A DNA stretch of 64,000 nt from Branchiostoma floridae (taxonomy: Eukaryota; Chordata; Leptocardii; Amphioxiformes; Branchiostomatidae). The notes beneath the pieces were generated by a model, which did no database searches, was not told the DNA's origin, and saw only the letters and a program-made list of their open reading frames with translations. Location: the NCBI RefSeq assembly GCF_000003815.2, contig NC_049992.1, positions 18,447,745 through 18,511,744 of the forward strand, given 5' to 3'. Positions 4,801-48,175 of the stretch are shown piece after piece (position 1 is the stretch's first letter; each line of letters starts with the position of its first letter). Both the position numbers and the translations under genes were made by a program.

Positions 4801-7800
4801 CAGACAGACACACCCAAAATTATATTTCCATTATTCATGGAGATGACGACACAGGGGTGATAAATGCTATGCTTTCTTCAGCCGATCGTTTTCAGGATGT
4901 ACGCGTAACAGCTGATACACTAATGTGCCGATGTTTTTGTTTGTTTGTCACCGGCAGTTCTAATCTCTGATTGGTTTATGACAGAAAAAAAGAAGAACGA
5001 AGAAGAAGAAAACACCAACAAAAATCTTATGTTTCCCTTTGGAAGGTATAATTAGGTATGATGCAATACTCACTTGGTACGCCAGGTGTCTCTGCACGAC
5101 CTTGCTTCATGGCTTCGAGATATTTCCCTGCCTGTGATTGGAAAATTTTGAGACATTTTACAATCAGCTTCACATATGGATAGAGCACTATTGAAAAACA
5201 GGTATTAGATCTAACTGACAACTCTTAAATGACAAAGTGGCAATAAGAAATGGCATTCTTGAACTAATTTAACTGCAATATACAGCACCATAGACTTCCT
5301 GCAACTTATGATCCACTGCTCACTGAGTCACGTGTTTTATCTGCATAACGTGACGTCACGGCAGCAGTAGATTGCTCATTCCTTGACAAAGACTGATGCT
5401 GTTCAGTCGAAAATTTGGGTGAGTCCAATTTTTGTGTTGGATATTACAGTTAAACTAGTTAAAAAATGACTTCTAGCAACTTTCAAGTTAAGAAATACCA
5501 TTGATTGAACCATAAGAGTTGTTTTACCAGGTCTCCGATTTCTCTCATCCTGAAGTGCCACATTTTATCCGCCAGGGCTTCCTTAAGAGGTGCCGAGCCC
5601 CTCGTCTTCTTCAGAATGTCGTCCATCTTCTGGATGATTGCTTCTTCCTGTTTGATCTGTTCGTTCTCTGTATAGAAACAATTACAGCGCCATTTAGATA
5701 GAAAATAACCCGTAAATAAACAGCTGCAGTACTAGTAAATATAACTAGAGGGCCCAAAAATCTAACTTTGCCTGACGCTGCAGGACTACAATTCATATCA
5801 CAAAGTAACCGATAAACAAACAACTGCAGTTCTAGTAAACTTAAAGAGGGCCTAAAAGTTTACACACGTTTGCTTGGCACTACAGGACTACAAATTATTT
5901 CACAGAGAGATCGAGAAAAAACAGCTGCAGTTCCAGTAACCGTAGCTAGAGGGCACAAAAGTTCGCACACCTTTGCCTGACTACACTTCACCTCACAAAG
6001 TAACTTATAAATAGACACCTGCAGTACCAGTAAACGTAACTAGAGGGCCAAAAGTTCACACACGTTTGCCTGACGCTACAAGACTACAATCCATATCACA
6101 AAGTAACTGATAAACAAACAGCTACAGTTCAAGTAAACGTAACTAGAGGGCCTAATAGTCCACACACGTTTACTTGACACTACAGGACTACAAATCATTT
6201 CACAGAGTGATCGAGAAAAAAACAGATGCAGTTCCAGTAAACGTAGCTAGAGGGCACAGAAGTTCGCACACGTTTGCCTGATACTCCAGGACTACACTTC
6301 CCCTCACAAAGTAACTTATAAATAGACACCTGCAGTACCAGTATACGTAACTAGAGGACCAAAAGTTCACACACGTTTGCCTTACGCTACAAGACTACAA
6401 TTCATATAACTGATAAACAAACAGCTGCAGTTCCAGTAACCGTAAGTAGAGGGCCAAAATTTGATACATGTTTGCCTGACTTTACAGGCTATGAACAACC
6501 AAAAAATTACCCACTTGGTGGTCACAACAATGAAAACACACTCCATCATTTTGATAATAGCACTAGGGACAAAATCTTGCTAATAAGCTCTCCCATGTCT
6601 CGGTCAGCCGATGTCTACATACATTAAAGATTCTTGTCCCATGCTTTGTTACTAATTTTGGCAACTAACTTTACAGATTTTTTAAATCATTTGCATCAAA
6701 TAAGTGGTCAAAAAATAGATGGTAGTAAACTGTATTAATTTCTAAAAGATAAGCAGTTATGATAAGGTATCTAGGTGCCTGTCTCTCTATGTAGCACGCG
6801 TCCTTGGGTTCACACCTTGTATATGGGTCGACTCTAGTTTATTGCCTTTTAATGGTAAAATGCCTTTTAATGGCAGAGAACACTTCTTTACCATCAACAC
6901 GCATTCTTTACCATTAAAAGGTAATAAACTAGAGTCGACCCATATACAAGGTGTAAACCCAAGGACGCGTGCTACATAGAGAGACAGGGGGTGAAAATAG
7001 GACAAAGTTTTAAACTTCTGTTACATAAAATGTAGACTTTCGGTGTAAACTAAATCAAATGGATCCACAACTGTTGACAATGGTGCTATTTTTACATGAA
7101 CAACACTAACTTTAAGTTCAATTTTGATTTAATAGCGTCAGAATTGTAAGCAACGTCAACACTAATTACAAACATAGCTGACCCCAAACAAAATGGCGGC
7201 GAGCCGTCGACTCAGACACTCTTTTGTCATACGTTCACTCTAAGTCCCATATTTACACCCTTTCTCTTGGATATCTAACATATCTAGATATTAAACGCAT
7301 GAAGAGATTCTGTGGTCTGTTATCAGTCACTTGTACTGTGAAAAGAAGTTGTCTGCTAAAAGCCAAAGTATAGGTGTGTCATTTAAAGTTGTAATCTATA
7401 GTGCGGTTCGGTCATGTGGAAATCCCACCATGAAGGCAAAACTTAAGCCTAAATTCCGTAATCTTTTATTATTTATGGAAAAGTCAATCTTTAACAACAC
7501 TAATTGATTAAGGTACGTTTAGGTGAAAATTGTTGCTATTGTAGACCGTAAAGGTGCGACTATTCTACATATCATTGTTCGGTCATGTGGAACGCTCGCC
7601 ATCATTACGGCTTGACCTGAACTTACACTTACAACGTTGTCTGTAATGCATGTGTGCCAAAACTCATTGGTGTAGATAATAATACGAAATGATCATGTGT
7701 TTGTGAAAATTAAAGACGGCAGATGGGTCATTTTTGAGGATGTAATGATTAGGATATACATATATATATATAAACAATTCCAAATACAAGAGTGGCGATC

Positions 7801-13834: not shown

Positions 13835-16800
13835 TCAGGTAATAAGGGCCGTCTTTTTGCTGTCAAAGATGTCATCATCATCAGGGTCCTGGAGAGAGGG
13901 TGAGACCCACTGGGGCTTTTCGTCCCATTCCTGCCACCTGTATGGAAAATAGAATAGAACAAAATTATGAATAACTGCTTGGTAGAAAATCACAACAAAA
14001 AGAGTCTGTGGTAATGGCTCTCATAAAACTCTTTCTAAATTCTACCTCACTGATATCCAAAATGAAGATGAAACCTCTGAGCATCTTATTACTGTATTAT
14101 AGTAGAAGCTGGGGAATTATTTGCAGATGAGTAATCCTTTTACAGGATAGTAAATTTATAACAGGACAAAATTTATTGTGGACAGCAGCCCATTTGCTAC
14201 ATATTTTTCTCCTTGACCTCCTTCTCTTTTAACTGAGCAATGGAACAATCTTATGAATCCTAGTCCTATGAGATTAAAGTGACCACATCCATTAAATATA
14301 AAATGTGTTGGTTTATTGGTAATCATGATATGAAAAAGACAAAAACCCTCTTAAAAAGTCGTGTGCAACAATGTGTACTGGGAAATAAACCCTTTTCTGG
14401 GAATGCCCATGGACATTACAGAAGTACACAATGAATTCCTAAAATCCTTGGGATTTTATATTAATACTATTAGGCTAGCCCCTGAGGTGTTGCCAAAAAT
14501 ACTTACACATTTATGACTATGATGAAGAAGCTCATGAGGACCATGAGAAGGAAGCATGCTCCGTGGAAGTACCGGATTGTCGCGGCGTACATGGAGTTGA
14601 AGATGAGGCTGGAGAAGAGAGCAGAACCGCACTCCAGCACACCCATCAGTGAGAATGTCGCACCTACACGGACAGGAAAGCAAGTAAATTCAAAACAGGT
14701 TGACCTGGAAGCATAATGCTTAGAGGCTTATAAGAATAATGTCTTTCAATAGCTAGTGGTGCAATAAATAGGCTTTTAGCCAGACATGCGCATCTGGACG
14801 CACATCATGGCATCATCTGGACAGCTTTTCTTGAAATAACAAGAAATTGGATGCACTAGAAGCCTTTTCACTGGGGAAAAATCCTCTGACAAGCATGAAA
14901 TGACACTACTAGTACATCATTTGTGGTCAGAGTCTTCTACGCTGACCTCTCTAACTATAATATAATTTTGCCACTCAGGATACCTTAGAATGCACCATTT
15001 TAACTTTTAACTAATCTTTGCGCAATTTTCAGGGAGCAGTCAGCCTCCAATATAACAGTGGATTTTGAGGCAATAAATAGCGGCATTAATGCTTGATTTT
15101 CTAGCTGTCTTGAAACTTAGTGACCCTCTAGCAAATTTGCCAAAGATCATGAAAGTGTGGCATTGACTTGAAATGAATGTGATATATATACATTTTGTAC
15201 AATCATGTCATGATTTCAGATACAGTTGGGTGTTAACGAAGCGAAAGTTTTACCTTGTTCACTGCTATCAACCTGCTTGGAGATCATCCCATGGAGTGCA
15301 CCCAAGGCTAGATACTGAAACGCACCCGCCGCAGCCGCTGGAACAACAAAAGAGGACTTAGCAATATGCAAATGCAGTGCCTGGGAAACCCAGACTGATC
15401 AAGCCAGTGCAGGAAGGGTTTGCTACCGATCCAGAGCCATATGCGCCCAGCAATTTTCATCTGTAAATGACATAAAGCTTTTCCGACCACACAATTAATA
15501 GTTTAAACTCAATCATGGTGAATGAATGGAATTATGGGGCCTCTCATTGCCACATTATTGTAGCCTGAGTACCATCCTATGTAGTGACCACTGGCTCAAT
15601 ACTTTGTTGGAAGACTAAGTTATAATTGTGAAGTAGCATAATTATATTAGGATGTGTGGTACCAAAAGTGGACATGAAAAGTGACTGGGCTGGGCTGGTA
15701 CTAGTTGATATATCTCTAACTTCTAAGCCATGGCAAAAATAGCGCAAAAAGTTACTGAAAAATTAGCAGATATGATTCCCTTGGTTTTGTATAAAGGAAG
15801 CCACGATATACAGTAGAATAATAGTACAAGCCTCACCACAGAACATGAGCCATGTGGTGCTGGAAAACGCCATGATTTCGAACTTGGCCGCGTACGAGAC
15901 GCCCCCGATGATGACAAGGGCGGTGTCCGGGAGACGCTTGGCCAGGAACGGCATGACGACCAGCAGGGTGACGGACGGAATGACGTTCTGCGCCGCCTGC
16001 CAGTAACCGTACAGACTCTCCGACCACTTTAACGGCTCCGCTTTCACGAAGAGTAGACCCACTTCTGCAACACCTTATACAAAACGATTGTAACAACACA
16101 AAAAACATTATAAAACATTCTTTCAGCGTTCTATCAAGCCTGAATTTTTTTACATCCCCTGGATTTAGAATGGAAATCCAGAATATCAAAGGCAGGGGGG
16201 TCAGGGGTATGCTGTCTGGGAAAATTTGGTTTACTAAAACAAGACCCTCTGAAATGCTATTTCCTTCATTTTGAGGGGCAAATTTTGCTGGTAGACTCAA
16301 ATTGTAATTGGATCAATTAGAATCTTTAATTACATGTCAATTTTTGTTCATCACAGGGTATGGAATGGATTGAACAAAATTTTTGTTCTTCCCCAGCAGT
16401 AAAACTCTGTCAAACTCAAAGGACAGAAGGACGGACGCTGGCTAGGACCCTGCATTCTTTTATTGAGAATATTCATCTAAAAATGATGGTTTACAATTAA
16501 GAAATGCATATAAATCATGATGCAATAGAACAGAAATGAACAAAAACAACAAGAAAGGAAACTTTGATTTTGAGCACTGCCTAATCCTCTTGCCAAAACT
16601 ATTTTCTTACCTGCTTGGATGAGTGCAGAGAGGAAAAGACACAGGTAGGTCAGGTTCACATGCACCCTTCGGTTATTTGGTCTCTTCTTCGTGCATATTT
16701 GAGCCACCTTCTTGATATTTTTAAGACTAAAAAATTGCAGACAAGCGCCCCTTTCTTCCGAAGGGTCCACGTTCAATAGAGAAGTCCCTCTCGGCCTAAC

Positions 16801-17460
16801 AGGGTCAGGGTTCTTCAACCAGAAGATGACGTAGAGTATCGCTAGAAACTGTAGAGCCGCACAAGTGACAAAGACCGGGACGTAACCGACGTTGTCCGCC
16901 ATGACACCGCTTATCAGCAAGCCGACGGTGCACCCTAACGTGTTCGTAGCGTCTACGATCCCCATTCTTTTCGTACGCTCCTCTTTGGTCGTGACGTCGG
17001 CGAGATAGCTGAACACGGACAGCAAGACCGTTGCGAAGCCGCCGCAGAATCCGCTTATGAACGGTCCAATCAGCAACAAGTACCACGGTAGGTCAATCCA
17101 CCACGACTGGAACACGATGTTGACGCTCATGAGGCAGCCTCCGAGCGCGGGAAGGATCATGGCGACCTTCCGTCCGACGCGGTCGCTCCACGGGCCGACG
17201 AAAACGGTGACGATGATGGATGGTATGGTGAGCGCGATCACGTTCGCGAGAATCCAGATGGAAGCCTGGCTCTGGACGGCGTCTTGCAGCTCGACGTTAT
17301 CGCTTTTCTCGAGACCGTCGCAGAACGTCTGGTTGAACATGCTGAGACAGGACTTGACCCAGACGACCTGCTGCAGTACCGGGGTCTGCAGGTTGAGGGC
17401 CATCATGTACAGGGCGATGACGGGCTCCACCGTGATGATGTCACGCAACGACCGCTCCAT
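13835..17460 (-). CDS. SLC46A: SLC46 / proton-coupled folate transporter family MFS permease
   Basis: Exons on the minus strand: 16614-17460, 15837-16064, 15254-15337, 14507-14663 and 13835-13937. All introns are GT-AG and phases run 1,1,1,2. The sum is 1419 bp, 472 aa, close to human SLC46 proteins (about 460). The product is a plasma or lysosomal membrane solute importer; SLC46A1 carries folate with protons and SLC46A3 acts in lysosomes, and the sequence alone does not choose between them. The MFS loop signature GPWSDRVGRK lies at residues 89-98. A second conserved segment, ADVTTKEERTKRMG, is at about 154-167, and a potential N-glycosylation site NQT at 43-45 precedes it. About 12 hydrophobic segments are seen. 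The C-terminal tail has a DPDDDD acidic run and ends KKTALIT. The start is the first Met of a long uninterrupted exon; an upstream non-coding exon is possible. Confidence 0.9.
14790..14985. repeat. Dispersed repeat sharing GGCTTTTAGCCAG family
   Basis: GGCTTTTAGCCAGACATG, TTGGATGCACTAGA and ATCCTCTGACAAGCATGAAA match the element at 21637-21979 and, in part, 11300-11360. This is a truncated copy in an intron of the SLC46 gene. Confidence 0.6.
16124..16452. mobile_element. hAT-type MITE with perfect 8-bp target-site duplication (copy 2)
   Basis: Ends CAGCGTTCTATCAAGC and GCTGGCTAGGACCCTG. CATTCTTT is duplicated exactly at 16116-16123 and 16453-16460. It is 329 bp, the same family as 13460-13791, and lies in intron 1 of the SLC46 gene. 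Confidence 0.88.
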
Positions 17461-18412
17461 AACGACCCTGATATTTAGATACTAGCCGTAATATTGGAGA
17501 TGGCTGGTAACACTAATGTCTGTAACGTTAGGACAAAATAATACATAATGTAAAAATTTAACTATTGCAAATAAATTGTTGTCTTAAGGCTAAATGAATA
17601 CCTAACATCGGTTATCTATTTCGCAATCAGATATTCATAAGCGATGTGTTCATATTAATTTCAAAGGAAAAGGCAGCTTGAATGAACATTATTACAAATG
17701 TTTAAAGTACATTCAACAGCTCCTACTCGAGATTACAATGACCAGATCACCGCAAAGCAAATTTGTCATCTAGCTGCCGACAGAAGGTCTTGGAAGAGAC
17801 TTACAGTCGCCTGCGCCACAGCCGACCGATGATTCTAAGCTGACATACCTGTGATTTGACCCTTTGCTTCCGTCTACTATTGGGATGTCACCATAGCCAA
17901 CTGGGCCTCCTTGAGTATGGGATACTGTGAAGATCCCTCTACAGCTTTTTGAGTTTAACACGTTAGTGTACGTAAAAATTGCAGTGCTGGGTAGATGTTC
18001 GTCATGACGTCCCGAACTAAGGTTTTACGTGCTGTGAAAGACTTTCGTAAGGGGTCGTGGACTTTATACACCACATTCTATTCATGGCATATTTATAGCA
18101 CTAAAAATTAGTAAGGCAGGCAGGCTATCATGATCACCCCACCTCAAGCTTGGACTTTAGACCTCCACTGCTGGTGATCATGTGATATACATGGGGGTCA
18201 ACCAGGGATGGTATCTAGGGATGGAAATTAAAAAATAACACTCCAAAAATGTGATTTTTTGTTAAAATACGTATGTTTATGGTATGTAAATGTTAGCTAG
18301 GTAATTTGCAGGAATTAAATGTCACCAAAAACATCCAAACACATCGCTTACCCCACACCTCCCCTCGGTACTGGACTGTCCCTGACTTTTGAACTTTCAC
18401 CTCTGCCCCAGC
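17461..18412. promoter_or_regulatory. Divergent intergenic region between SLC46 and GTF3C3
   Basis: The SLC46 start (minus) and GTF3C3 start (plus) are about 950 bp apart head to head, so this interval probably holds both promoters. No TATA box in proper position is obvious for either. The bases just before the GTF3C3 ATG (CTTTCACCTCTGCCCCAGC) also fit a splice acceptor, so a 5' non-coding exon is possible. Confidence 0.5.
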
Positions 18413-21400
18413 ATGGCGGACTCAGGCATGTCGTCGGCGGAAGAAGTTGAGCGAAGAGTTGCCCAATATCTCCGCGGAGAGGTGTCCTTCCAGGAGTTCG
18501 ATGCCTTCAGACAGGAGAGGGGGATCCAATCGTTCGTACAAATGGCTCCACAGCCGGGTACGAGTACAGGGGGGCCGACAGCAAGTGGGCAAACTGGTCG
18601 GTTGGTACCGCCGACGGGGGAGGGGGGCGGTGCCTCCGAAAACGACGACTCGGACGATTACTTCGATGACGACAACTTTGACACCGTAAAAACACGAGAC
18701 GACAGTGACGAAGACGAAGAAGAAATGGAAGGCGTGGAAGAAGAAGGGGACGATTCCAACACGTCTCCGGCGGACACTTCCCTTACGGCAAAGTACCTCG
18801 AAGGAAAACTTTCTTTCTCCGAGTTTGCTGAACTCATGGAACAAGAGGAAGACGATGGCAAGGAGACGGTGAAGACAGCTGTAGAGCCGAGTAAGAAAGG
18901 CGTGGACATTTCTGAAGCCTTCAGTGTGGAGCTTGCTCTGGAGCAGGAGGAGAGAAAGGGGAGGAAACGACCCAAGAGAAGGAGAGTCAACGAGGTTTGC
19001 AAAGACGGTTTTGTTGGGACTAGAATTTATAGTAGAAAATATTTTGGCAAGCTGGTATTGTGGTTAGGGTTGGTGGCTTAGAATGTAAAGGTTATGGGTT
19101 CGAATCCGTACTAGTAGTAGACGGAAAAGGCTTGGGAAAGGCACTTTTACATATTCCCTCAATCTACTTTGGTGAAAATGAGTACCTACATGTACTTCTG
19201 GCTAGGGATGTCGTCTTGGATGGGATGCCTGAAAGCCAATTTGTTTGAGGACAGCCATTCCTTCATGATCAGCACATTAAGGGACCTACTTTATATAAGC
19301 CTTCTCACATTAGTTAGGACGCATGTGCGGCGACAGGAATTCTACGAAATATGTCAAAGGGTAAGGCACACAAAAAGTAAACAGTCCTTGTCTTGACCAT
19401 TGTTTCGATTTGCATAACAATATCCAGACGAGTTTATTTACTTTTTGTGTGCCTTACCTTTGACATATTACATGTACCTAGAATTCTTGTCGCCGCACAT
19501 GCGTCCTAACTAATGTGAGAAGGCTTATAAGTTGCAAAAGAGTAGGGGTCCTTCCTGGAGTGAGTGAATCAAGTAACTCTGTCAGGAGCTGCCTGTCAGA
19601 TTGAGCAGCTTGCGCTGTTCATTACAAACCTGATGTGTTGCACCATATGCATGCTTGCCAGGCATTCAATACAAATAACTTTTTGTCTGTTTCAGGTCCC
19701 CAAGCCTCTGCGAGGGTTGATGGGAGAGGCCAACCTGAGGTTTGCCCGGGGGAAGTACGATGATGCCATCAAGATGTGTATGGAGGTCATCAGGCAGGTC
19801 AGTAGGTCAAGCTTTTGTACTCTTCCAAGACTATAGGTCAACTTAATCTCAACCTTAAGAGATTGAGAGTAGCATTTGATACTTAAAAGGAAGACCAAAC
19901 TCTGAGTCTCCCCAACACTTCAAATAAACTGACAGTTGAACCTTGTGGTGAATCAAAGAAGGAGAAGAAGATAGACATGCCTTTGCCAGTGACAAAGGCA
20001 CTGCAGTGCAAAGACACATCTTTTTGACTACTGTTCTAAATATAAGGAAGTCATTGAATAAGGTGACTCTTTTTTACACAACCATATTTACATTGCTTTC
20101 TTCTCACCAATGTTTTGGTGACTGTCTGTCACCTTTTTCAAGGCAATTCTGACTGGTTCACAATGTACTGCAGGACAGGTGTCGCTGCTCACATTACAGA
20201 TGCAGCCACAAAACGTGAAGAATTTACATATGTACGGACGGCTTTATGCAAAATATTTACAATGCGGTCCCAAATGAAAAGGAGTGTAAAACATCCGTAA
20301 CAGTTTTTAACGGTGAAAATGATGTGCAGTAACAGTTTCATCTACTACAGTTGTACTTACCAACCTGATGACTATTCTCGGATGAGGAAGTCATCACAAA
20401 AGTGATGTTTACGTGTCTTCCAGGTTCCCCACTGCTATGAGCCGTTCCAGACTGCAGCCATGGTGTATGAGGAGAAGGGGGATATGGAGCGCTCCCTGCA
20501 GTTTGCTCTGATAGCTGCACACCTTAACCCTCAGGATCCCGAAGAGTGGGTCAAGTTAGCAGAGGTGTCACTAGAACAGAACAACATCAGCCAGGCCATC
20601 ACCTGTTACAAGAAAGGTGCTTGTAGTTACATGCTAGGGGTGGGTACGTACTGGTACAAAACCTTAACCCTTAGGAACCCGAGGAGTGGGTCAAGTTAGC
20701 AGAGGTGTCACTAGAACAGAACAACATCAGCCAGGCCATCATATGTTACAAGAAAGGTGCTTGTAGTTACATGCTAGGGTTGGGTACGTACGGGTACAAA
20801 ACCTTAACCCTTAGGAACCCGAGGAGTGGGTCAAGTTAGCAGAGGTGTCACTGGAACAGAACAACATCAGCCAGGCCATCATCTGTTACAAGAAAGGTGC
20901 TTGTAGTTATAATATACATGCTTGGGGTAGGTACGTACTGGTACAAAACCTTAACCCTCAGGAACCCGAGGAGTGGGTCAAGTTAGCAGAGGTGTCACTG
21001 GAACAGAACAACATCAGCCAGGCCATCACATGTTACAAGAAAGGTGCTTGTAGTTATAATATACATGCTTGGGGTAGGTACGTACTGGTACAAAACCTTA
21101 ACCCTCTTAACCCGAGGAGTGGGTCAAGTTAGCAGAGGTGTCACTGGAACAGAACAACATCAGCCAGGCCATCACATGTTACAAGAAAGGTGCTTGTAGT
21201 TACATGTTAATTAGGGGTAGGTACGTACTGGTACAAAAACTTAACCCTCAGGAACCCAAGGAGTGGGTCAAGTTAGCAGAGGTGTCACTAGAACAGAACA
21301 ACATCAGCCAGGCCATCATCTGTTACAAGAAAGGTGCTTGTAGTTACATGCTAGGGTTGGGTACGTACTGGTACAAAACCTTAACCCTGGGGAACCCGAG

Positions 21401-24400
21401 GAGTGGGTGAAGTTAGCGGAGGTGTCACTAGAACAGAACAACATCAGTCAGGCCATCACATGTTACAAGAAAGATGCTTATGGTTACATGCTAGGTTCTG
21501 GTACAAAACCTGAACCCTCAGGAACCCGAGGAGTGGGTCAAGCTAGCAGAGGTGTCACTAGAACAGAACAACATCAGCCAGACCATCATCTGTTACAAGA
21601 AAGGTGCTTTTAGTTGCATGTATACATGCACCATCTCAGGCTTTTAGCCAGGCATGTGTCATTTGAACACACTTTTCTTAAAATAACAAAACTTGGATGC
21701 ACTGGACGCCCTTACACTTGGGAGCAGATCCTCTGACAGGCATAAAATCCTGATTGACCAGGGATGCCACTAGGTCGTATGAGGTCACATTGACTCCTAT
21801 TGTGACCTCTCTGACAGTAATTTGCCCTTTTTAACTTAAAATTCTCTTAAACTCTGCACCATAGAAAGGTGGATACCCCCGGGACCCACTTACAATATTC
21901 GTGCCTACAGTGTAAATGACTTAGCGTGACTTACCAAGAAATTTGGACCTCATATAATAAAATCCTAGCTAAAAGCCTGAGTCAGACTTATAAAAGAGTG
22001 AATCTTTTATCAAATTGGTTGGCCCTGTATTATAAGACGTAGCTGCTCTTTAGACTCAAGTTAGACATCAAGACATATGACAGGAGACCAAAAACAAGCT
22101 CAGATGTGCAAGTAGTGTACATTTTAACGAAGGTTCTATTAAAGTTCTAGATTGACAGTCCAATTTTCCCCTCCATAGCCCTGAGATATGACCCCAACAA
22201 CATCGGCATCCTCTGGGAACAGGCTAACCTACTGGAACAGACACAGGAGCCCAGGAAGGCTCTGGAGGGGTATCAGCAGATACTAAAGGTAACTTATATT
22301 CTCAGAAAGGCTCTGGAGGGGTATCAGCAGATACTAAAGGTATCTTTGATTCACAGCAAGGCTCTGGAGGGATATCAGCAGATACTAAAGGTATCTTTGA
22401 TTCATAGCAAGGCTCTGGAGGGGCATCAGTAGATATTAAAGGTATCTTTGATTCATAGCAAGGCTCTGGAGGGGTATCAGTAGACTAAAAGTAACTTTGG
22501 TTCACAGAAAGGCTCTGGAGGGGTATCAGCAGATATTCATGATAATTTGTATATTCACTGAAAGGCTGTAGATCTGGAGGGTATTGTTTATGCTAACATG
22601 AAATGGATGGCAAAGGCATATGACTACATTTTTGTCTTTTTGCACTAAAATATGTGAAATAAAATTCCTTGATCAAGAAGCAAATCTGGTATTGTTAGGT
22701 GAAGAAGATTTCATTTTTTATGTGTTTATGTGCTTTACATGTTTATTGATACTTAAAATGATAAATACTCTCCTGGACCGAAACCAGAACAATTAATTGA
22801 ACACAAAATACTAAGTTAAACATAGATTATTAAGACTATGCCACTTGTACAATAATAAGTAGTGATTCACACTAATAAGTAGTGATTCACACTAAATAAT
22901 CTAATTTTCACCATCCCCAGCTTCTCCCAGAGAAGGAAGGAAACAAGTACATGGATCTCATGAGGGACATGTCCAAAACCTACCATGCCACGGGGGAGAC
23001 AGAGGCGGCCATAGAAACCATACAGGCAGCTTTTACCAAGCACCCCACCTTAGGTAAGTACTCTAATTTTGATGAATGAATGAATGAAGACCTTTATTGT
23101 ACAGTTTTGCCCAACCAAGCTAAGTACAGGTCACAAGTCAAAACATTATACATAATAAAAGTATCACAAATCCTGTCTTATACAGAAGTTTGGCTTCTTC
23201 TCACTTCTTGGTATTATGGTAAAAATGTAGGACTGTAGGCTAGGGTTTAGCTATGGTTGGTTTGTCAAAACGCATGAGGAATATAAACTTGTCAGTGCTA
23301 CTCATGATCATGTGTCTAAATTGAGGGAATCTACTTTCTATGTAATTGAATAGAATTATATTTCTATCATTGGCATACATATCACAATCAACAGTAAAGT
23401 GCACTTCATCATCTACCATGTTTGAGGTACAAAATTGGTAGACTCTTTCTTTGTTCTAGAGGAGTGCGGTTGTGCCTTTGTGATTCAATTCACAGTTGGT
23501 GGCAACTGATAAGGCCTAGTAGTGGGTACTGGTACAGGAAATTCAGGCCAGGTCAGTTCAGGTCCAGAGAAACAGGTCAAGGTCCGGACCTGAACCTGGA
23601 CCCGATTATCTGTGATAACTAATGTGAATGGGTGATACTCAAAACAATGGTCTAATTCCATTACAAATGATTCTGTTTGGTGGAGTATCCAACATCCTTT
23701 GGCATTTTAAAATCCTATCTTCATGGAAACAACACTAACTGCATAAGTTTAGACCAAGTTTGACTGTAAAACTTTGAAAAATGACCATGAACTCTTCTCT
23801 ACTTCCCTCTTGTCTTAATTTTCTTGGACCTCAATAAGCCCCAAAATACGTCAACACCTGCAAGTATAATCTGTTCATTTTCTAATCGGTCCAAAATCCG
23901 GGACACTAATTTTTTCAGGTCCCTTTCTTCGGGAATGGCCCAACAAGAAAAATGGTTACACTGTACTGTGTACACGATACAAATGATACACACCCCAAGT
24001 TGACATCTTTTAAAGTCCTACACACATTTTACACATTTTACAAAATGTGGCTTGTGATCAGGAATACAGGTGGTTGCTCTGCCAAGCTCGATGGTACGAG
24101 GGGCGGTCAATAGGTAATGCCCCTGACCCACTTCCAGTCGTCTGATCTAGATGAAATTTTGTATGTGTAATGATTCATATCTTTATAGGTTATGTTGCAA
24201 AAAACAGCTCTGAACTAATTGTGGTTTCTGATTTACTGGTGTTTGAACTGAGTCAGGTGCGAAATGGACCAGGTGTGAAATGGAACCAGTTGAGTGTCGC
24301 GCAGTGATCCGGTTTTTGTATTTGAAAGGACGCACACCAAAGAAGACTTTTGATGAAATGAAAGAAACTTATGGTGATGATGCCCCATCATATGACCTTG

Positions 24401-27400
24401 TAAAACGCTGGCATCCTGAATTCAAACATGGCCGGAAGTCTGTGGAAACAGCTCCCAGACCTGGTCGTCCCTCTTCTGCCATTGATGAGGCATCTGTTGG
24501 AGGACCAACCTGGGGTGTCCTACAAAAACGGTGTCCAGAGCTGCATCAAACGATGGGAGAAATGCATAACTCTGGGTGGTTCCTATAAAGAGAAAGACTA
24601 ATAACTGTGCCTAGTTTCATTAATCTCTTGCTATGGAAAATGGGTCAGGGGCATTACTTATTGACCGCCCCTCGTATATGTTATCCTTCCACCTATAGTG
24701 ACATTTGAGGATGTGAACATGCTGACTGAGCTGTACGTCACCATGAAGCAGTATCGCCATGTGTTGGAGGCCATGTCCAACTACTGCAGTGTGCAGCTCT
24801 CTTGGCAAGGGGGCGTCACTGACACCATGGCTGCACTGGACAGACTGGGCATGCCTGACACAGGGAAACAGGGTAGGACTGGTTGTAGTTTAACCCTTAA
24901 ACTGCCAGAGTTTCAGCACTATAAAATGTTATCAGTGCCAGGGTTGGCTGCTGACCTCCAAAAAGAACCCCCCGAACAAGGCCAAAGTCCCTAACTTCCG
25001 GGGTTTTTGCGCTACGTGCGCGCAAAGTTGCTACTTTGGGGGAATACGCTATCCCAGATATATCCGGGTGCGGCACACAGGACATGTTTATGTGTGCCGG
25101 ATATATCCAGGTTTGGCAGTTTAAGGGTTAACCTTCTTCAGTAGAGGTAGACTTTTGCACTTGATTTTGTTTGCTACAAGGATAGGTATAATGTTGAAGG
25201 TAAACTTTTGAACTTTTGTTGTTTTGTTCCTGGCTGACCAGAACGTAAACTTGAGAGACCCACACAGATGATCTTACGAACACGTGATCTTGCGGATACG
25301 TGACGTCAGCACTTGGTCAAACATGACAGGAAGTTTCTAACACCTACCGTCTCTGTTCAGTGTTAGCTGGAGTGCCCCGATGTATATGGCCTCCTTTATA
25401 CCTCTTACAAAGTAGTCCTGTTCAGTGTCTAGTATTGTGACTTTGTCCAGTGAGACCAGTATGGCTTGGTGATTCGATGTAGATGTGTCGAGGGACTTGT
25501 AGTATATATAACACCCTCCAGATTAATTTTGGACTTCCAATTAATTCCGGACAAACCTTAATCATTTGAAAAACGATGAACCAAATGAATTAAGATTTGA
25601 AATTATGGTATATTAAAAGGTAATTAATATGTAGATTGCAATTAGATGTCTCCAGGAACAAAGCCAATTCTGGAGAATTCTGGAGAATTCTGCAGAATTC
25701 TGCAGAATTCTGGGAACCTGAGCCAGAATTCTGGGAACCTAAGTCAGAATTCTGCAGAATTCTGGGAACCTAAAGCCAGAATTCTCCAGAAGCTTTGTTC
25801 CTTGAGACATCTGATTGCAATCTACATATTAATTACCTTTTAAAAGACCATAGTTGCAAATCTTAATTCATTTGGTTAATAGTTTTTCAAATGATTAAGG
25901 TTTGTCCGGAATTAATCTGGAAGTCCAAAATTAACCTGGAGGGTGTTATTTGTACAATGTAGTTGGTTTGAAAACACAAATATGCAGTGTCCTGATTGGT
26001 CTTTTCCAGAAACCCAGGTGATGCAGTGCACCATCCCCCCTGAGACTCCCATAGACCTGAGCATTAAGCTAGCGGTCAGCCTGGTCCACCTGCGCTACCT
26101 GGCCGCAGCCAGACCACTGGTGGACATGTTACTGCAGGAGAGTGCTGAGGACATGGGGGATCTGTACCTGGACATAGCTGAGGCTTATGTCGACGTCGGT
26201 GTGTGTTATTAGTCTCCAAGCAGATGGTGGGAGACAATATTGTTATGTTTTCCTAGCTACCTATTTCTGTTGTAGACTGTTTAAGTGCTTATTACACCAA
26301 TGACATCAAAATTAAAAAGTCATGGAATTGAATCATTATACTAAATTAGTAACATACTGTAAATGTATTTAAGTTCGCGAGGATTTAATTTCGTGGTAGC
26401 GGGAAAAGGGACTTTTTGCGGTGGTTTTGTAGTAACACCATAGACTGCAGTCTAATATCATAATAGAAATCACATTAATCCACTGCGAACATTTCTGCAT
26501 TTACAGTATACGGTACATTTAGTTGCCAAGATATGCACCCTTGTGATATTATTGCACATCAAATCATAACAAAATCATGCCTCCCGCTCTTGATTCTTTC
26601 CACCAGGTACAAATGTAATTAGACTGAATGGTGACTTTCCCAGTCATGACAATACAGTGCCTTTTAGGAATTTTGCACTATGTCTCAGAAAGAACATTAT
26701 TTTGAAGCTTTGATGTGCAGATTTTTATGTATTTGCTCTTTAGGGCAAGTAAATTTTCTTAACTTGTTGAACCCCTGTCTTTACCTGTTCCCAGGTGAGT
26801 ATGACAGTGCGCGCCCCATCCTGGCTATGCTGGTGAACACAGAAAGGTACAACCTGGCAGCAGTCTGGCTCAGATATGCTGAGTGCCTCAATGCACTGGG
26901 TAAGTTACTAGATTTTTTTCTTACCATGATAGCATTGTGTGTGAACTATAAAAATACATGAAGGCAGTGTTGCAGTCTTGTCATGTAACAAAGCAAAAGT
27001 ACATTTTGTATTTCCCTTGTCTACAGTCCGTCTCTTTAGAGTGTTTGACAACACTTGTAATTAGACATGTTGTTGAGCAAATCTGAACTCACAGCTTTTT
27101 TGTCATAAGGCAGGGCTGCTAACGAACTATACACACTATCTTTCAATCTACACCATCAATCTACACATTCAACCACAACGATACTTTAACTTACTTTTAT
27201 GTCCTCCTCTCCCCTTGGTGCTCTGTTGTACAGGAAAGACGGAGCATGCAGTGCAGAGCTATGCCAAGGTTGTGGAGATGGCTCCCAGTCACCTGGGTGC
27301 ACGGCTATCCCTGTCAGCACTACAGCAGCAGCTGGGCAGGCCAGAGGAGGCGCTGCAGGCACTTTCAGAAGGTCAGAGGTCATGCATTAGGTCAGAGGTT

Positions 27401-30400
27401 ATACATTAGGTCAGAGCTATGCCAAGGTTGTGGAGATGGCTCCCAGTCACCTGGGTGCACGGCTGTCCCTGTCAGCACTACAGCAGCAGCTGGGCAGGCC
27501 AGAGGAGGCACTGCAGGCACTTTCAGAAGGTCAGAGGTCATACATTAGGTCAGAGGTCATACATTAGGTCAGAGGTTATACATTAGGATGTCAGAGGCCA
27601 TGCATTAGGTCAGAAGTCATACATGAGAAGGTCAGAGATTATGCACCAGGTCAGGCATTATACATTAGAAGGTCAGAGGTTATACACTATAAGGTCAGGG
27701 GTTATACATGACTATACATTAGGTCAGAGGGTACACACCAGAGGGTCAAAGGTTATGCAGTAGAAGTTCAGATGTCATACATTGTAAGGTGATAAGATGT
27801 CCCTCCCCAAAATCGTAAGGTAAATTTTTTCTTGACTCATGTTTACACTTAGTCAAGGGAACAATATTGGGGACTGCTAGGGATTTAAACCCAGAACCTT
27901 AAAATTCCAACTCCACTAAGCATGCACAAGACCACCTTTTGACCTAAGTCATGCATTATACATTTTGTAACTAATTAGGACATTAAGTAATGCTCTGGGA
28001 ATGTCATAGGTCAAAGTCAAAGGCTTCTTGATAAATCAAATTATCAAGTGACATCTGCCTCATATCCAGGTGCTCCAGCTGCCACCCCCACAGCTGTGGA
28101 GACAGCTGCTCAGGTGTCAAGCCAGCCTGGTCCTGACGTGCAGCTGCTGCACCACAAGAGCACCCTTCTGTACTCACAGGTCAGGAGACAGGGCTTATTT
28201 TCTGCATCAATACGTTTATTTTGAGCAAAAACATCCTAATAGGTAATAATTGTCTTTTTGTAGACCTGTTGAGACTGAGGTTAAGCTTCAACTTTCAAAG
28301 TTTTGATGTACCTACATTGTATGGAGTAAGAACATGTTCGGGTTGTCTGCATAGGTGGTTAGATTGATTGGACTGTACATTTTTGTATGTATGACATCCT
28401 CTGGGAACCCCTAAACTAATTTGAGCGTACAGAAATAAAAGTTTGGTAAAGAAAAGTTGACTTCTTTGTTGAATCAGGATTCAAGGTAACGTTGAAAAAA
28501 TGATTAACCGCACAGAGTACATGTAGACTGTATAGAAGATAATACATTCTTAATGTCGGTACTTTTACTTCTCCTTCAAGTTGACTTTTGAATTAACTTC
28601 TCTATGACATTGGTGACTGTTTTCCCATATTTTTTTTGCAAATTGTTTTTTTAATGGTAAGTTTGCAAGTAACTGACAAATTGATGCGCAGTATTCAAAT
28701 CAACATCTCCTTAACCAAGTTAAAGATTCTAATAGGGCTTTTGAATTAGTCTTTTGTTGTAGACTTTGGGGTCTGAACTCTGTCACACATAACATGTTGT
28801 GTCCACTTTAGTTGTTGTTGTCCACCAGTCCTGTTTGAAAAATTACTTTATAACCCTCCCTACAGGGAAGAATGGAAGACTTTGTGGACTCTGCCCTGCT
28901 CATGTTGTCCAAGTATTTTGAGGAGGCGTATCAACAGCAGAACCTACAGCTGGTCGTGACGAAGATAACATCCCGCAGACGGAAGTACCAGCTGAGAGCC
29001 ATGGTGAAGGAACAGGGGGGAGTCGGGCAGGGGAGGTCGGTTGGTGAGTGTACAGTACAGATCTCGATTATAGTCCGGTCTGAACGCGATTTAATCGCGT
29101 GCAAAAGTCGTGCAAGTTGCGATTACATCTCGGTAAAACGCGATTAGATATGCGTGTACCCGCGTCTGATATGCGTGAAATCACGTCTAACCGCGTTTAG
29201 ACGATCAATGAATAGATTTCAGACACGCCTCTTCTTTTCATAAACATTTTCTAGACACGCCCGTGCCGTCGGAAGTTCGGGGTTTGGCAGAAATCGGCTT
29301 CTTTTTATATGCACACCCCCACGCGGAGGGCGGAGAACGTATCACGCCCAATTTCCCAATTTGTTTCTGAACTAACGCATAACCTTGCAGTCTAGAACGC
29401 ACCCGCGCCGCTCCCAACCACGATGTTCTGAGTTTGAATTGGTCAGCCGTCATGAGGGTCTGCATAGGGGGGACACTGGAAATGCTTATCTGTAAATTTA
29501 GGTGGGCTGGTAAATGTATAACAGTGAAATCAAGATAACTGGCAAAGTTTAACAGCCAATCGACTCGTTTTTTAAAGAGAAAATGTTCAAGGTGAAGAGG
29601 CGAACATAGAAATGCTGAAATTCCCCCCTTTACAGTACTTTGCGATGCATTTGAAATTTGTATTAAAAATGGTAGGAGCGTGTGGGGCAGTCGGCAGGGT
29701 GTTCGCTTCATGAACCAGAGGTTCTGGGTTCGAATCCATTGGTGTATCACCACTCTTGTGCCCTTGGGAAAGGCGCTTAACCTGACTATCGTCACTTCAC
29801 TCAGGTGAAAATGAGTACCTATTAGTAACTTTGGTTAAATGGAGGAGAGCCACACCTCAAGCACGTTTAAGAACCCACTGCACTTATCGACAAGAGTAGG
29901 GGTCCTTCCTGGTGTGAGTGGCTCATATAAGTCTGTCCAGACATGCACTTAGTACTGTTCTTTGTGTCATACCTGTGACGCGAAAACGTTCGATACGGGT
30001 GTTCCGGACCGGGCTGTACGCTTCCGTATTGCACAGGTTCAAAAGGCGTATCACACAGGCTTTCTTCGAGTAAATCGAACCATTTCGAGCAGGCCGAATA
30101 CGGCTCGGTTGGCAATTCGAATACCTGATTCAGACGTTGGAACATTGTTGTTGCAACACTTCTGGTTCAAGGGCACCAAATTTGTTCAACTTCTGGCGCA
30201 TTTCGCATCAAAACATGGGTTTTCTGAGGTGGGTATGACATAAATAAGATACGGTCCCAGCCCTCCCGCGGGTCGGCTGATACCCTCGGGTGATACGGAA
30301 TACACCGTGTTGTATTCTATATGTACCAACCTGGTGTGTTACGCCATGAGGCGGTTTACCGGGTATACAATACAAACAAACAAACAAAAAATACATTTCA

Positions 30401-33400
30401 ATGTCCTGCATGTATCCCGTTCCAGTGGACCTGAGTGGCAAGCTGAGTTCCATCAGTAAGCTGGAATGGTGGGACCTGTTCTGTAAGGCCAGCCGGAGTC
30501 TCACTACCTTAGGCAGGACAGAAGAGGTGGAACATCTCACCATGGCAGCCCTGGCATCACCTCAGTTTGAGAGGGATCTTGCTAAACAGAAGGTAACAGA
30601 ACTCTGCCTGGTCACATATACATAACTGTATATGCCAACCCCAAAGAATGTGTCAAAAGAGATTTCCAGTGCAACATACCGGTACCTCAGTATGATGCAC
30701 TCCTGCGTAATCTAACCTGTGCATATCTGGGGAGTGCTGCACTAAAAATCTCTCACAATCACACTGCTTTGCAAGTGGCGGAATTACGTACCTTAAGAGA
30801 AAATTACAACTGGAGCTTCTATGTGTCTGACATGTCCAAAGGGTAGATCAGTGACAGTAAATTAAGCAATTGTTCTTCCAGACTGTAGCACATTTGCCAA
30901 GTTGCTATGCGGTGGTTTCCTTCTAGCTGTCTGCAAAGGTGCCTAAGGTTAATATATCACATGACGTAACTGTAGCACTATCGCAAACTGAAAGCCAATG
31001 CAAACACTCCATTTTCTCCCAAGCGGAGAGTAACTGTATTGAAATGGAACATTTGGAAACAGGGGAAAGTCTATACTTTGGAACACAGTTCCATTGAGTT
31101 TACAGAGTCAGATGCCAGTTCGCTGTCATCACTCTTTTTTTCATCATGACTGTCCTCTAGTTAAAATCTTCTCTCCGAATATTGGTGTGTCCTAGAAGCT
31201 GCTAGAAATGCTACAGTCCTTCTTGTCAGTTCCTCCGGATCATGATTCTGAGTGTGTGCTGCCTGAACAAGAATGTACATGTACAGTACATGTACAGTAC
31301 ATGTACATTTTTGTACAGTACATTTACAGTAATGTACTGTATTTACTGTAATTATGCTAGATTGGAAAATAAACATTCAGAAACAAATTGTGAGGGTACC
31401 TTAGATGTCAGTTTTCTCTAAGCCATCTGTTTTTATCGTGTCTTTTTATTGAAATCCTATGCAAAATAGTCTGAGAACGAAATTAAAGATTTACATGTGT
31501 ATTGGTGTGGCCTAGCAGCTGCTAAAAACAGAACTCTTTCATTTCACTTATTTCAGGAGCTTAAGTACATGATTCTGAGTGCGTGCTGCCTGAACAAGAA
31601 CTACCGGATGGCGTACGTGTTTGTCCGACCAATGATTATGGAGAATACGGGGGTGAACCAGCTGTGGAATGTCTTTAGTCAGATCACCACCAGCAGTGAA
31701 GATGCCCGACATCACCGCTTCTGTCTTAGACTTATGATAAAGGTGATGGCAGATTTCTTAAGGTGGGGTCACACCTGCATATATATGAGGCGTCCGTATG
31801 AGGCGCGCATGGGAGTATTTGCCTCCCCCAGGCCCCACACGTCGTTGAAAAATAATAGAAATTGGACAAACGTAAACACTCAGGTAACATGTCAGCAAAG
31901 TTAGTTGGGTCGCTAACCATACTTCTCGGTCAGCTAACTCATCTGGTTTGTTATGTTTCTATATTTGTCCAATTTTTACTTTTTTTCCGCAACCTGTGGA
32001 GCCTGTTAGAGACTAAGAGCATCATACGCACCTCAAACGGACTTGAACATACATGTATACGCATTTGTGACCCCACCTTTACGAATTTTACTCTTTCTTA
32101 AAACTGTATGTAATGTATGTAATGTATCAAAATGATGCAAGAAATGTATTTTTTAGAATTTCATGATGTTATACTTTACATGTAGCTTTGCTGCATGCAT
32201 GAATTCACTGTTACGTCAATGAAGGAAAGACATTCAGGTCACTGACAAAAGACACCGCATGGTTGTCTGAAAGGTCTCCAAAATCATATCCAGGGCTCGA
32301 AATTCATTTTTGGGATTAGGTGCACTGGTGCACCCAGTCTAAAAAATTGGATGCACCAAAAAAATTTTAGGTGCACCACTTAAATTTAAGTAGAATGTCA
32401 GAAAAACCTATGATAACAAAACTTAGTTATGTTTTCATCAAGTACCATGACAGGCATTTTTTATTATCTTTCTAACACTTAGATGCCAAGAATAGTCAAG
32501 TCAAGTCAAGTTTATTGCACAACGATTGTATCAGGTACAATGTATGGCAAGTAACATGTATTACTAGCAACTACGAACTATCTACATGAGTATACTAATC
32601 TAACATAATAGAAAATAAGGCGGCATAGTGTATTTTACATTGTTAAAGCACGACTTCTCTTTTGCATAGCATTATATATATATTGGCCTAGGTGGACAGA
32701 TATGGAGTCGGGACATGATAGAATTACATTGAATATTTCTCTACTTGTATTAGGTAGTGTTGTTCTGTTGTTACACATGGTCAATAACTTTTTCCTTTCT
32801 TCATCATAACAAGGGCATATCATCAGGAAATGGTATTCATCTTCAATACTGTCTTTGCAGATATGATGTATAGTCTAGTATACTTTGATATCTCTACATA
32901 CATAAGCCTATGAAAATATTGGGTGCACCCTGTGCACCCACAGAAAATAATTGGGTGCACAGCTCCAATTTTGGGTGCACCTGCACCCAGTATTTCGAGC
33001 CCTGATATCCATGCAGTTGCTTGAGTAACTTTTTTTGGCGCAATTATATTCACTGATTTATAAGATATTTTACAGTTCTACAGTTCTAACAAACAAACAT
33101 AATTATAAGACTAATATTAAATGAGAGTAGTCTATTTCCTTGTGTACACAATATGTTTTCCTCAGTTAGTGTGGATTGAAAGCCTTGAGTATATTTCAAT
33201 GTATCTGTGTCATAAAACTGAATAGACAAGCATTCATTTTTGGCGACACCTCAGGGGCTAGCCTACTAGTATATTGTGCGTCCTTTTGACAAAAAATCCC
33301 AAAATTCCGCAGGCATGTTAGGAATTTTTTCCATGCCTGCGTAGCTGCATCATCCTGTTAGAGGGAAATAACTCGGAAATGGGTCGACAGATCTTATATT

Positions 33401-36400
33401 TGGAACGCAGATAGCTTCAGTGATGCCTTACATAATCAAATGCTAGTCATGCAAATCAGGGGCTAATTTGCATAATTAATGAGGATGGTTTCTAAATACA
33501 TTTCTTTTAAGAATACTAATTGTCCTTTTTTCCATCTATCTCCAGAATCCACACAACATAGCTCTGTCCTTCCTGAACGGCCACAACTCGTTGATATCGG
33601 GAACGTACAAGCACGCCCTGGGCGAGTACGTGCGTGCGTACCGCCTGGACCCCAGCAATCCCATGAGTCTCCTGCTGATCGGGGTGACGTTCTTCCACAT
33701 GGCCTCGCAGAAGTACACCATCAAGCGCCACTTCGTCCTGGTGCAGGGCATGTCTTTTCTAAGTATGCACTTTCTACTCTACATGACTGGATTGTACATG
33801 GTTGGTTCTGTGACACGACACAGCAGCAAAGGGCAGTAGATATATGGATAGCAGGGTTCTACCCAGGATTTAATTTTAGCGTAGTGGGAATGGCATGGCA
33901 GCGAAGCGACCAATGAGATAGGTGGGGAAGGGAGTCTTGGCCATTCCACGGTGAGATTTTGAAAATGTAGAGTTAAAAGTTTAAGCAATCTGTTAACATC
34001 ACTTTTGGTCAGTTTTGAATGGTATATCATAATTTGTCATTGTTCATACATTGATTAGACATAGCAAATGGTAGCAAAGCACCACTACACTAGTTAAAAA
34101 TTAGCGTAGTGGCCCTTATTTTAGCGTAGAGGTCACAAATTATAGTGTAGTGGCCCACTACGCTAAAATGCACTAGCTAGAACCCTGGATAGAAACTAGA
34201 ATATAAATCAAGTCTTAGAGTGGATTCATATCTTAATTTTCAGGCCATGTGTCTTCTTTCTGATGCAGGGCATGTCTTTTCTAAGTACGCACTTTCTACT
34301 CTAGGTTCTGTGACACAGAACCTAGAGTACAGTACATACATGCAGTATGCAGTACATACACATGTGTCAGGGTTGGACATGTTTTTAAAATTAGCTTACC
34401 CTATTGGGAAAATTCATGGTCATTTAGTGATGTACACCTGCCCAAACCAACTTTTCACTGGCCCCAAATGACAATTATTTAAAATTTATGCATGGTGCCT
34501 GCAGAAAGGAAATCATTCTTTTTATTTTCTTTTTCATTTACAGTAAAATGTAACTGTTACAATGCTAACTACAAGACCAGGCAGCCTGCTGGTAGCACAA
34601 TTTATACACAGGTAGTATCCACCGTGGGGTCGTGTGGCGCGATCGGCAGCACATTGGGCTCAGGCCCAAGAGGTCCTGAGTTCTAATCTGGCTGCCGCAT
34701 CACTGATCTTGTGCCCTTGGGAAAGGCACTTTACACGACTTTCCTCACTTAACTCAGGTGTAAATGAGTACCTAGCTGCGGCTAGTGGCAGTGACAGGCC
34801 TTTGTGGCAGTGGTAGGCCTTAGGGGCATGTTCAGGCATGACGCACCCGCCATGACACACGAGTCAGGGGTAGGAGGAACCCCTTGAATCCTTGGTCGGA
34901 AGTCCTCCTAGGAGATGGAAACTCCAAATAATAAACCTGCATCTGCTGGGGCCGTCTTACGTGGCAAACAGTTGTGTCCCTGTAGGACTTAGTGTGCCAG
35001 TAGACGAGAGGGTGGAGAAGGAAGTGCACACCCCTCCTTCACCTTAAAAAAAAGTCACGTGCAGGCCAGGCAGACTGGTCGTCTAATCAACCTTGTCTGC
35101 CTACCATTGATCTTCGGATACGAAGAAACAGCCATCATCAGTATCCAAAAGTCATGTAAAATGCTTAATGGAGATGTTTTTCCCCTAGATGAATACCTGA
35201 TCCACCGAGGTGGAACACAAGAGGCTTACTACAACGTGGGAAGAGCACTCCACCAGATAGGTAAGGTTTGCATGGTCTTTCTACAAAGTCAGTGCTTTAC
35301 TCTTGATTTCTAAGTAAGACATTTTGTAATTGATTGCCATGATCCGTTATTGTTTAATTTCCGTTACTTGTCAGGAGCTGTCCCAGGACAAACCGTGATT
35401 TCGGTTGGGGAGGTAAAAGACACTAGACCCTAGCCTCCATAGCAGGCTCTCTATAGACTTTTTTGGCACTTTTGCTGGCCATTTCTTTTTGTACTGGGTC
35501 GCTAATTGCTGGCCTCTCTCATAGCCGTCCATTTTAGAGCCTGCATTTTTTCGGCGGTACAAAGTCATATTATAAAACGATTAGGGCGATTAACAAGGAT
35601 GTGCGAATTCCCTGCCTGCCGTGGACGGCTAATAAACTGCACGCATCTCCGCCGGACGCGGACAGTGCGCTGTCACGCCCCGTGTGCACTGACCCGACAA
35701 TTCTCTAACGATTTCGGGGTCAAACTGCTTTTTAAAAACACAGAAGTGAAACTTACCAGTTCGACGTTCTTTCGGTATGTCCGACGCCTTTGCTCGGGCG
35801 GAGCGCGTAGCGCGTGACATATGGGGGTTTCCCCATCTGAAGGACGGCCAAGCTCGGGCCCGAGTTGTAAAATGCTTGCAGCCGACATGCGAATTGCCTC
35901 TCACGGAGTTGTGAATTATTCCTAACGTATGTGTTAATAGGGCAGATGAATGGCTAATTGTTTTATAATATGACTTTGTACCGCCGAAAAAATGCAGGCT
36001 CTAAAATGGACGGCTATGAGAGAGGCCAGCAATCAGCGACCCAGTACAAAAAGAAATGGCCAGCAAAAGTGCCAAAAAAGTCCATAGAGAGTCTGCTATG
36101 GAGGCTAACTAGACCCCTTCTAATACTAGGACATAATTTTCTTTTACACAACCAGTTTTCCTCACCTGCTGACACAACTGGTTGTGTAAAAGAAAATTCT
36201 TATGTCCTATGATCTACCAACCTGAGGAAATTATTTTCGGCCCTTCTAATACTGTTCCCTGAACAGTGCCTAACAACCCACTGCCCCTACAGTCTCAAAA
36301 AGGCTGTTACTAACTTTACCTTTTATTTCAAACCTCCTCTGCTGCAGGACTAGAGCACCTTGCCATCCACTACTACCAGAAGGCCCTACACATGGCCCCT

Positions 36401-37725: not shown

Positions 37726-48175
<10,450 letters not shown>

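Follow-up and report, generated by a model that had tools for sequence, protein, structure and literature searches.

The window analysed here, a stretch of 64,000 nucleotides from Branchiostoma floridae, carries on its plus strand the gene for GTF3C3 (TFIIIC102), of which 15 exons were annotated between positions 18413 and 35260. The exons were placed from homology and GT/AG borders, and the annotation extends as far as exon 15. Joined together, they form a single open reading frame of 885 codons whose best match in the PDB is human GTF3C3 (8clk_D, E = 3e-194); the exon 4 region, in a reading of 46 residues, also has human GTF3C3 (8clk_D) as its best PDB match (E = 5e-6). When the proteins encoded by exons 4 and 5 are joined at the first donor of exon 4, referred to below as donor 1 (...GYQQILK + LLPEKEG...), they align with human GTF3C3 without a gap. 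This junction was chosen by us before the alignment to the human protein, whose length fits it. Upstream of the gene, an open frame for an MFS transporter is present on the minus strand at 16480-17481 (Pfam MFS_1, E = 5e-26). Rfam (gathering threshold) and ARAGORN gave no hits in the window, and no marker of the species was seen. The end of exon 4 and its donor are repeated in a tandem array, which we describe by the following features:

22179..22288, plus strand: GTF3C3 exon 4, ending in KALEGYQQILK in phase 0, with the probable true donor AAAG/GTAACT (homology, GT/AG borders, donor scoring).
22252..22567, plus strand: 51-bp tandem array of the exon 4 end and donor, seven copies, the last two decayed (TRF, repeat search, border search).
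22307..22390, plus strand: copies 2 and 3, which continue the open frame, with donors AAAG/GTATCT after 22339 and 22390 (frame reading, donor scoring).
22409..22600, plus strand: copies 4-7, with an in-frame stop at 22430; copy 5 has an altered donor, and copies 6-7 lack one in register (frame reading, donor scoring).

This array is a copied splice junction, and an earlier note on the same DNA had placed it correctly, in gene and exon, and read it as such. TRF calls it at 22252-22535 with a period of 51, 5.6 copies and 89% match, and alignment of the units confirms the claimed 33-bp exon part: each unit joins the final 33 bp of exon 4 to 18 bp from the start of the intron. Units start at 22256, 22307, 22358, 22409, 22460, 22509, and 22562, with spacings of 51, 51, 51, 51, 49, and 53 bp. 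The regular spacing reported for the first five copies is therefore right, but the count of six has to be extended by a seventh copy at 22562, which is decayed, as is copy 6 at 22509. The copies had been called exact, which is true of their spacing and not of their sequence: relative to copy 1, copies 2-6 carry 0-3 differences among 31-33 exon sites and 4-7 among 18 intron sites, a 2-bp deletion is present in copy 5, and the sequence decays toward the 3' end of the array. Similarly, the GT donor attributed to every copy is found in register in copies 1-5 and is missing from copies 6-7, and the CAG or TAG end 17 bases further on is seen in copies 1-5, whereas copy 6 ends in CTG. Units 1-3 do stay open in frame, as had been proposed, the read-through ending at the stop in copy 4. 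As a chance control, five 64-kb order-1 Markov sequences gave a single TRF array in total, and none with a period above 30.

When the borders of each of the 15 annotated exons were compared with positions 15000-40000 of the window, five of the 15 exons proved to have a copied splice boundary. Besides exon 4, these involve exons 3, 9, 13, and 14:

20521..21629, plus strand: sister array of the exon 3 end (96 bp) and donor, eight copies at 130-147 bp (TRF, border search).
27254..27574, plus strand: sister array of the exon 9 end (117 bp) and donor, two copies of a 158-bp unit (TRF, border search).
27528..27709, plus strand: nested 19/41-bp minisatellite of the exon 9 donor region, in which AG/GTCAG donor-like sites are repeated (TRF, donor scan).
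31180..31600, plus strand: acceptor region of exon 13 (31500-31600) with a single upstream copy (31180-31273), 74% identical (border search, direct repeats).
33731..34303, plus strand: donor region of exon 14 (33731-33781) with a single downstream copy (34253-34303), 92% identical (border search, direct repeats).

The GT is kept in register in 5 of 7 copies of the 51-bp array, in 7 of 8 copies of the exon 3 array, and in both copies of the exon 9 array. The exon 9 array and the nested 19-bp donor minisatellite lie together within 27254-27790. Four more matches of the border search fell wholly in intron flanks and were left out of the count of copied boundaries; they concern the donor side of exon 5 and, on the other strand, the acceptor and donor sides of exon 6 and the donor side of exon 13.

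Both the exon 3 array and the 51-bp array have inner copies that resemble one another and edge copies that have diverged. With the edge copies included, divergence is 0.057 in the exon part versus 0.158 in the intron part for the exon 3 array (eight copies; 0 of 5,000 permutations), and 0.085 versus 0.307 for the 51-bp array (6 of 7 copies, p = 0.0002). The corresponding values are 0.017 and 0.049 for the two copies of the exon 9 array (p = 0.067), 0.083 and 0.12 for the inner copies 2-5 of the 51-bp array (p = 0.27), and 0.053 and 0.10 for the inner copies 2-7 of the exon 3 array (p = 0.053). Constraint or conversion acting on the exon part of the arrays is a possible reading of these alignments; we do not claim selection on pseudo-exons, since the difference is clear only with the diverged edge copies included. 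Between copies 1 and 2 of the 51-bp array, 0 of 33 exon sites and 5 of 18 intron sites differ (Fisher p = 0.0036), a pattern that could be caused by conversion, by age structure, or by some use of donor 2.

The neighbouring gene, the second annotated in the window and encoding enolase, contains two further repeats close to splice junctions:

43440..43882, minus strand: 213-bp tandem duplication in the enolase gene, whose unit takes in an exon acceptor and four exon bases (direct repeats, gene model).
44470..45294, minus strand: intronic array in the enolase gene, 165-171 bp, ending 17 bases before an exon acceptor junction, the exon being uncopied (direct repeats, gene model).

Altogether, the window holds 16 local direct-repeat clusters, nine of which are in GTF3C3 and enolase; the other seven, where there is no gene model, were dropped from the enrichment test. 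The junctions used were 29 for GTF3C3 and 20 for enolase (read by hand), with two enolase junctions left out. A junction is contained in 6 of the 9 clusters versus 4.2 by random placement (p = 0.16) and lies within 40 bp of 7 of the 9 versus 5.2 (p = 0.17), so that no enrichment is observed with either measure. Counted post hoc at the level of units, four of the six tandem clusters in the two genes hold a junction (expected 1.3, p = 0.018). The first unit of each of the three GTF3C3 arrays holds the junction, with a product of chances of 0.0046, also post hoc.

Structures of this kind are on record in amphioxus. Excerpts of PMC3087553 describe "mirages", in which exon/intron boundaries of Adh3 and globins are duplicated in tandem in the manner of minisatellites, with units of 10-72 bp in Adh3 and 150-160 bp in the globins, AG/GT signals in many copies, and a copy number that varies between haplotypes. 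The globins concerned include BflGb6 and BflGb9, and splicing is apparently undisturbed, according to excerpts of both PMC3087553 and PMC3902484, which also cite the original Adh mirage report. The excerpts of PMC3902484 describe mirages of 60 and 108 bp in lancelet PGBD5, each in contact with splice sites, and others in troponin C (TnC). Beyond these two papers (PMC3087553, PMC3902484), the papers listed in our literature searches included no further mirage reports, and we found no mention of boundary arrays in excerpts of the amphioxus huntingtin paper. Nor did any listed paper bear the name of a lancelet transposon that was looked for. Set against the excerpted descriptions, the GTF3C3 arrays likewise have a tandem unit that spans an exon/intron boundary and a splice signal in many copies, which in mirages may be donors or acceptors. 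Units of 51 and 158 bp are inside the reported sizes, and those of 130-147 bp fall between the two ranges. The exon 3 array and the 51-bp array repeat the mirage pattern of similar inner copies and diverged edges; the exon 9 array has two copies. Differences from the mirages in these excerpts are that GTF3C3, with 15 annotated exons, contains three tandem arrays of donors as well as two dispersed copies of boundaries, and that the 51-bp array keeps the reading frame. In the features compared, all of them read from sequence, the 51-bp array fits the mirage structure.

We consider it highly probable that the array is a mirage, that is, a minisatellite spanning a splice junction, in which donor 1 works and the other copies are intron. 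The same anatomy at three GTF3C3 donors and one enolase acceptor supports this reading. Slippage or mis-repair at bases common to exon and intron (CAG; CAGAG at exon 9) would have copied the end of the exon together with its donor, and unequal exchange or conversion would then have grown and homogenised the array. The CAG ends of the array are the same as a CAG that the exon itself carries at the unit border, and CAGAG is common to exon and intron at the corresponding border of the exon 9 array; this sharing agrees with slippage at short homologies and explains why the CAG ends look like acceptors. The similarity of inner copies and divergence of edges are as in minisatellite turnover. Splicing via donor 1, the first and strongest, would give the normal protein, copies 2-7 being removed with intron 4, and changes in copy number would be nearly neutral because the working copy is at the edge of the array. 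We infer that the 51-bp array is transcribed and then removed with intron 4 and, judging from the donor sequences, that donor 1 is the site chosen. Turnover and edge decay are also shown by ordinary intronic minisatellites, which the GTF3C3 arrays resemble in both respects and in the nested sub-repeat at exon 9, but the GTF3C3 unit differs in containing coding sequence and a working donor.

Scored with a donor matrix, donor 1 reaches 8.39 and the donors of copies 2-5 reach 5.41, 5.41, 5.41, and 5.05; U1 pairing is -6.5 for donor 1 and -5.7, -5.7, -5.7, and -3.2 for copies 2-5. Copies 2-4 have a common GTATCT donor, weaker than donor 1. The three arrayed donors (-5.3, -6.5, and -5.4) are among the weaker of 15 in U1 pairing (range -5.0 to -11.9). 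Weak donors were considered as a cause of the arrays, but those of exons 1 and 14 are weaker (-5.0 each) and have no tandem array, and no conclusion was drawn.

The earlier note had interpreted the array as an alternation of exon-like and minimal intron-like segments, in agreement with models of intron birth by duplication of an AG/GT segment; the copies would then be alternating mini-exons and mini-introns, or a future new intron. Intron gain from junction-spanning arrays has indeed been proposed for amphioxus globins in the excerpts of PMC3087553. In each of copies 1-5, a GT opens a 17-nt segment that ends in CAG or TAG, and from donor 1 to the later acceptor-like ends the distances are 68, 119, 170, or 219 nt, which are possible intron sizes. 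However, a GT-to-AG segment of 17 nt looks too short, being below the size of known animal introns. As a microexon, one copy would measure 34 nt and shift the frame, and the acceptor-like ends are poor in pyrimidines (8-9 of 15, versus 9-13 of 15 in 14 true acceptors, among which exon 9 alone is as low as 9). In the sister arrays, the three unit borders examined at exon 3 are without AG, and the CAG border at exon 9 has about 6 of 15 pyrimidines. These properties speak against the proposed alternation. In the Rogers model, as excerpted in PMC4974935, duplication of an exonic AGGT segment creates a new intron, with ATP2A1 and 24-bp repeats in fission yeast as cases and potato RdRp as a variant. 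The 51-bp array resembles such gains in its tandem copies with GT and AG ends, but its unit, made of 33 bp of exon and 18 bp of existing intron, copies an existing junction instead of an exonic AGGT segment. Moreover, the gains described in these excerpts make a new intron position, and none is shown in GTF3C3, so the array does not match these models as the note had suggested. Intron birth, an idea that is not new, is not supported by the anatomy, and we regard it as very improbable.

Real use of donors 2 and 3 would lengthen GTF3C3 by 17 or 34 residues, respectively, and create a protein length polymorphism; donors from copy 4 on are behind the stop at 22430. Copies 1-3 encode the same KALEGYQQILK in frame, copies 1 and 2 agree completely in the exon part and differ in the intron part, and the Pfam TPR_2 profile is also 34 residues long. 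Against this, donors 2 and 3 score below donor 1, the human protein has no insert, and Pfam gives only a sub-cut-off TPR_2 match, at residues 11-36, which are ordinary exon 4. The model of the 70-residue read-through (mean pLDDT of 83.6, pTM of 0.47) is one 48-residue helix with no added TPR hairpin, although this single-sequence model, built with no alignment, carries little weight. Read-through of the exon 3 and exon 9 arrays meets stops at 20697 and 27407, so that an open frame is not a common feature and is special to the 51-bp array. A longer GTF3C3 thus described is unlikely, and it is doubtful that the array would act as a reservoir of alternative donors with donor 2 or 3 used in some alleles or tissues. 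If it did, a minisatellite would tune protein length, by 17 or 34 residues on one of the TPR helices of a Pol III factor, and the contrast between exon and intron parts in copies 1 and 2 would be its trace. An assembly artefact, in which one real copy was multiplied, seems extremely improbable. Repeat counts differ between two versions of a lancelet locus in the excerpts of PMC3902484, and those of PMC3087553 record a mis-assembled mirage, but multiplying one copy would not yield the substitutions and indels between copies, nor the decayed edges. The copy number of the 51-bp array may be wrong even so.

What the window adds is a housekeeping gene with a copied splice boundary at a third of its annotated exons (5 of 15), the phenomenon and the intron-gain idea being already in print in the excerpts of PMC3087553. 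GTF3C3 is a good natural test of spliceosome choice among near-identical donors, and of whether boundary arrays ever give new introns or protein length variants.

Other repeats are found in the window. On the minus strand, a long alanine-rich open frame with no Pfam match runs across 99-bp tandem repeats at 1876-2862, and an array of about 104/311 bp at 5702-6488 stops about 34 bp short of an acceptor-like sequence that bounds an exon-like stretch near 5668; the two open frames by this array have no Pfam match. In intron 5 of GTF3C3, the segment 24095-24676 holds a Mos1-type HTH_48 fragment (Pfam) flanked by a 36-bp inverted repeat (97%; 24095-24130 and 24641-24676), and this segment is probably a decayed mariner-like element.
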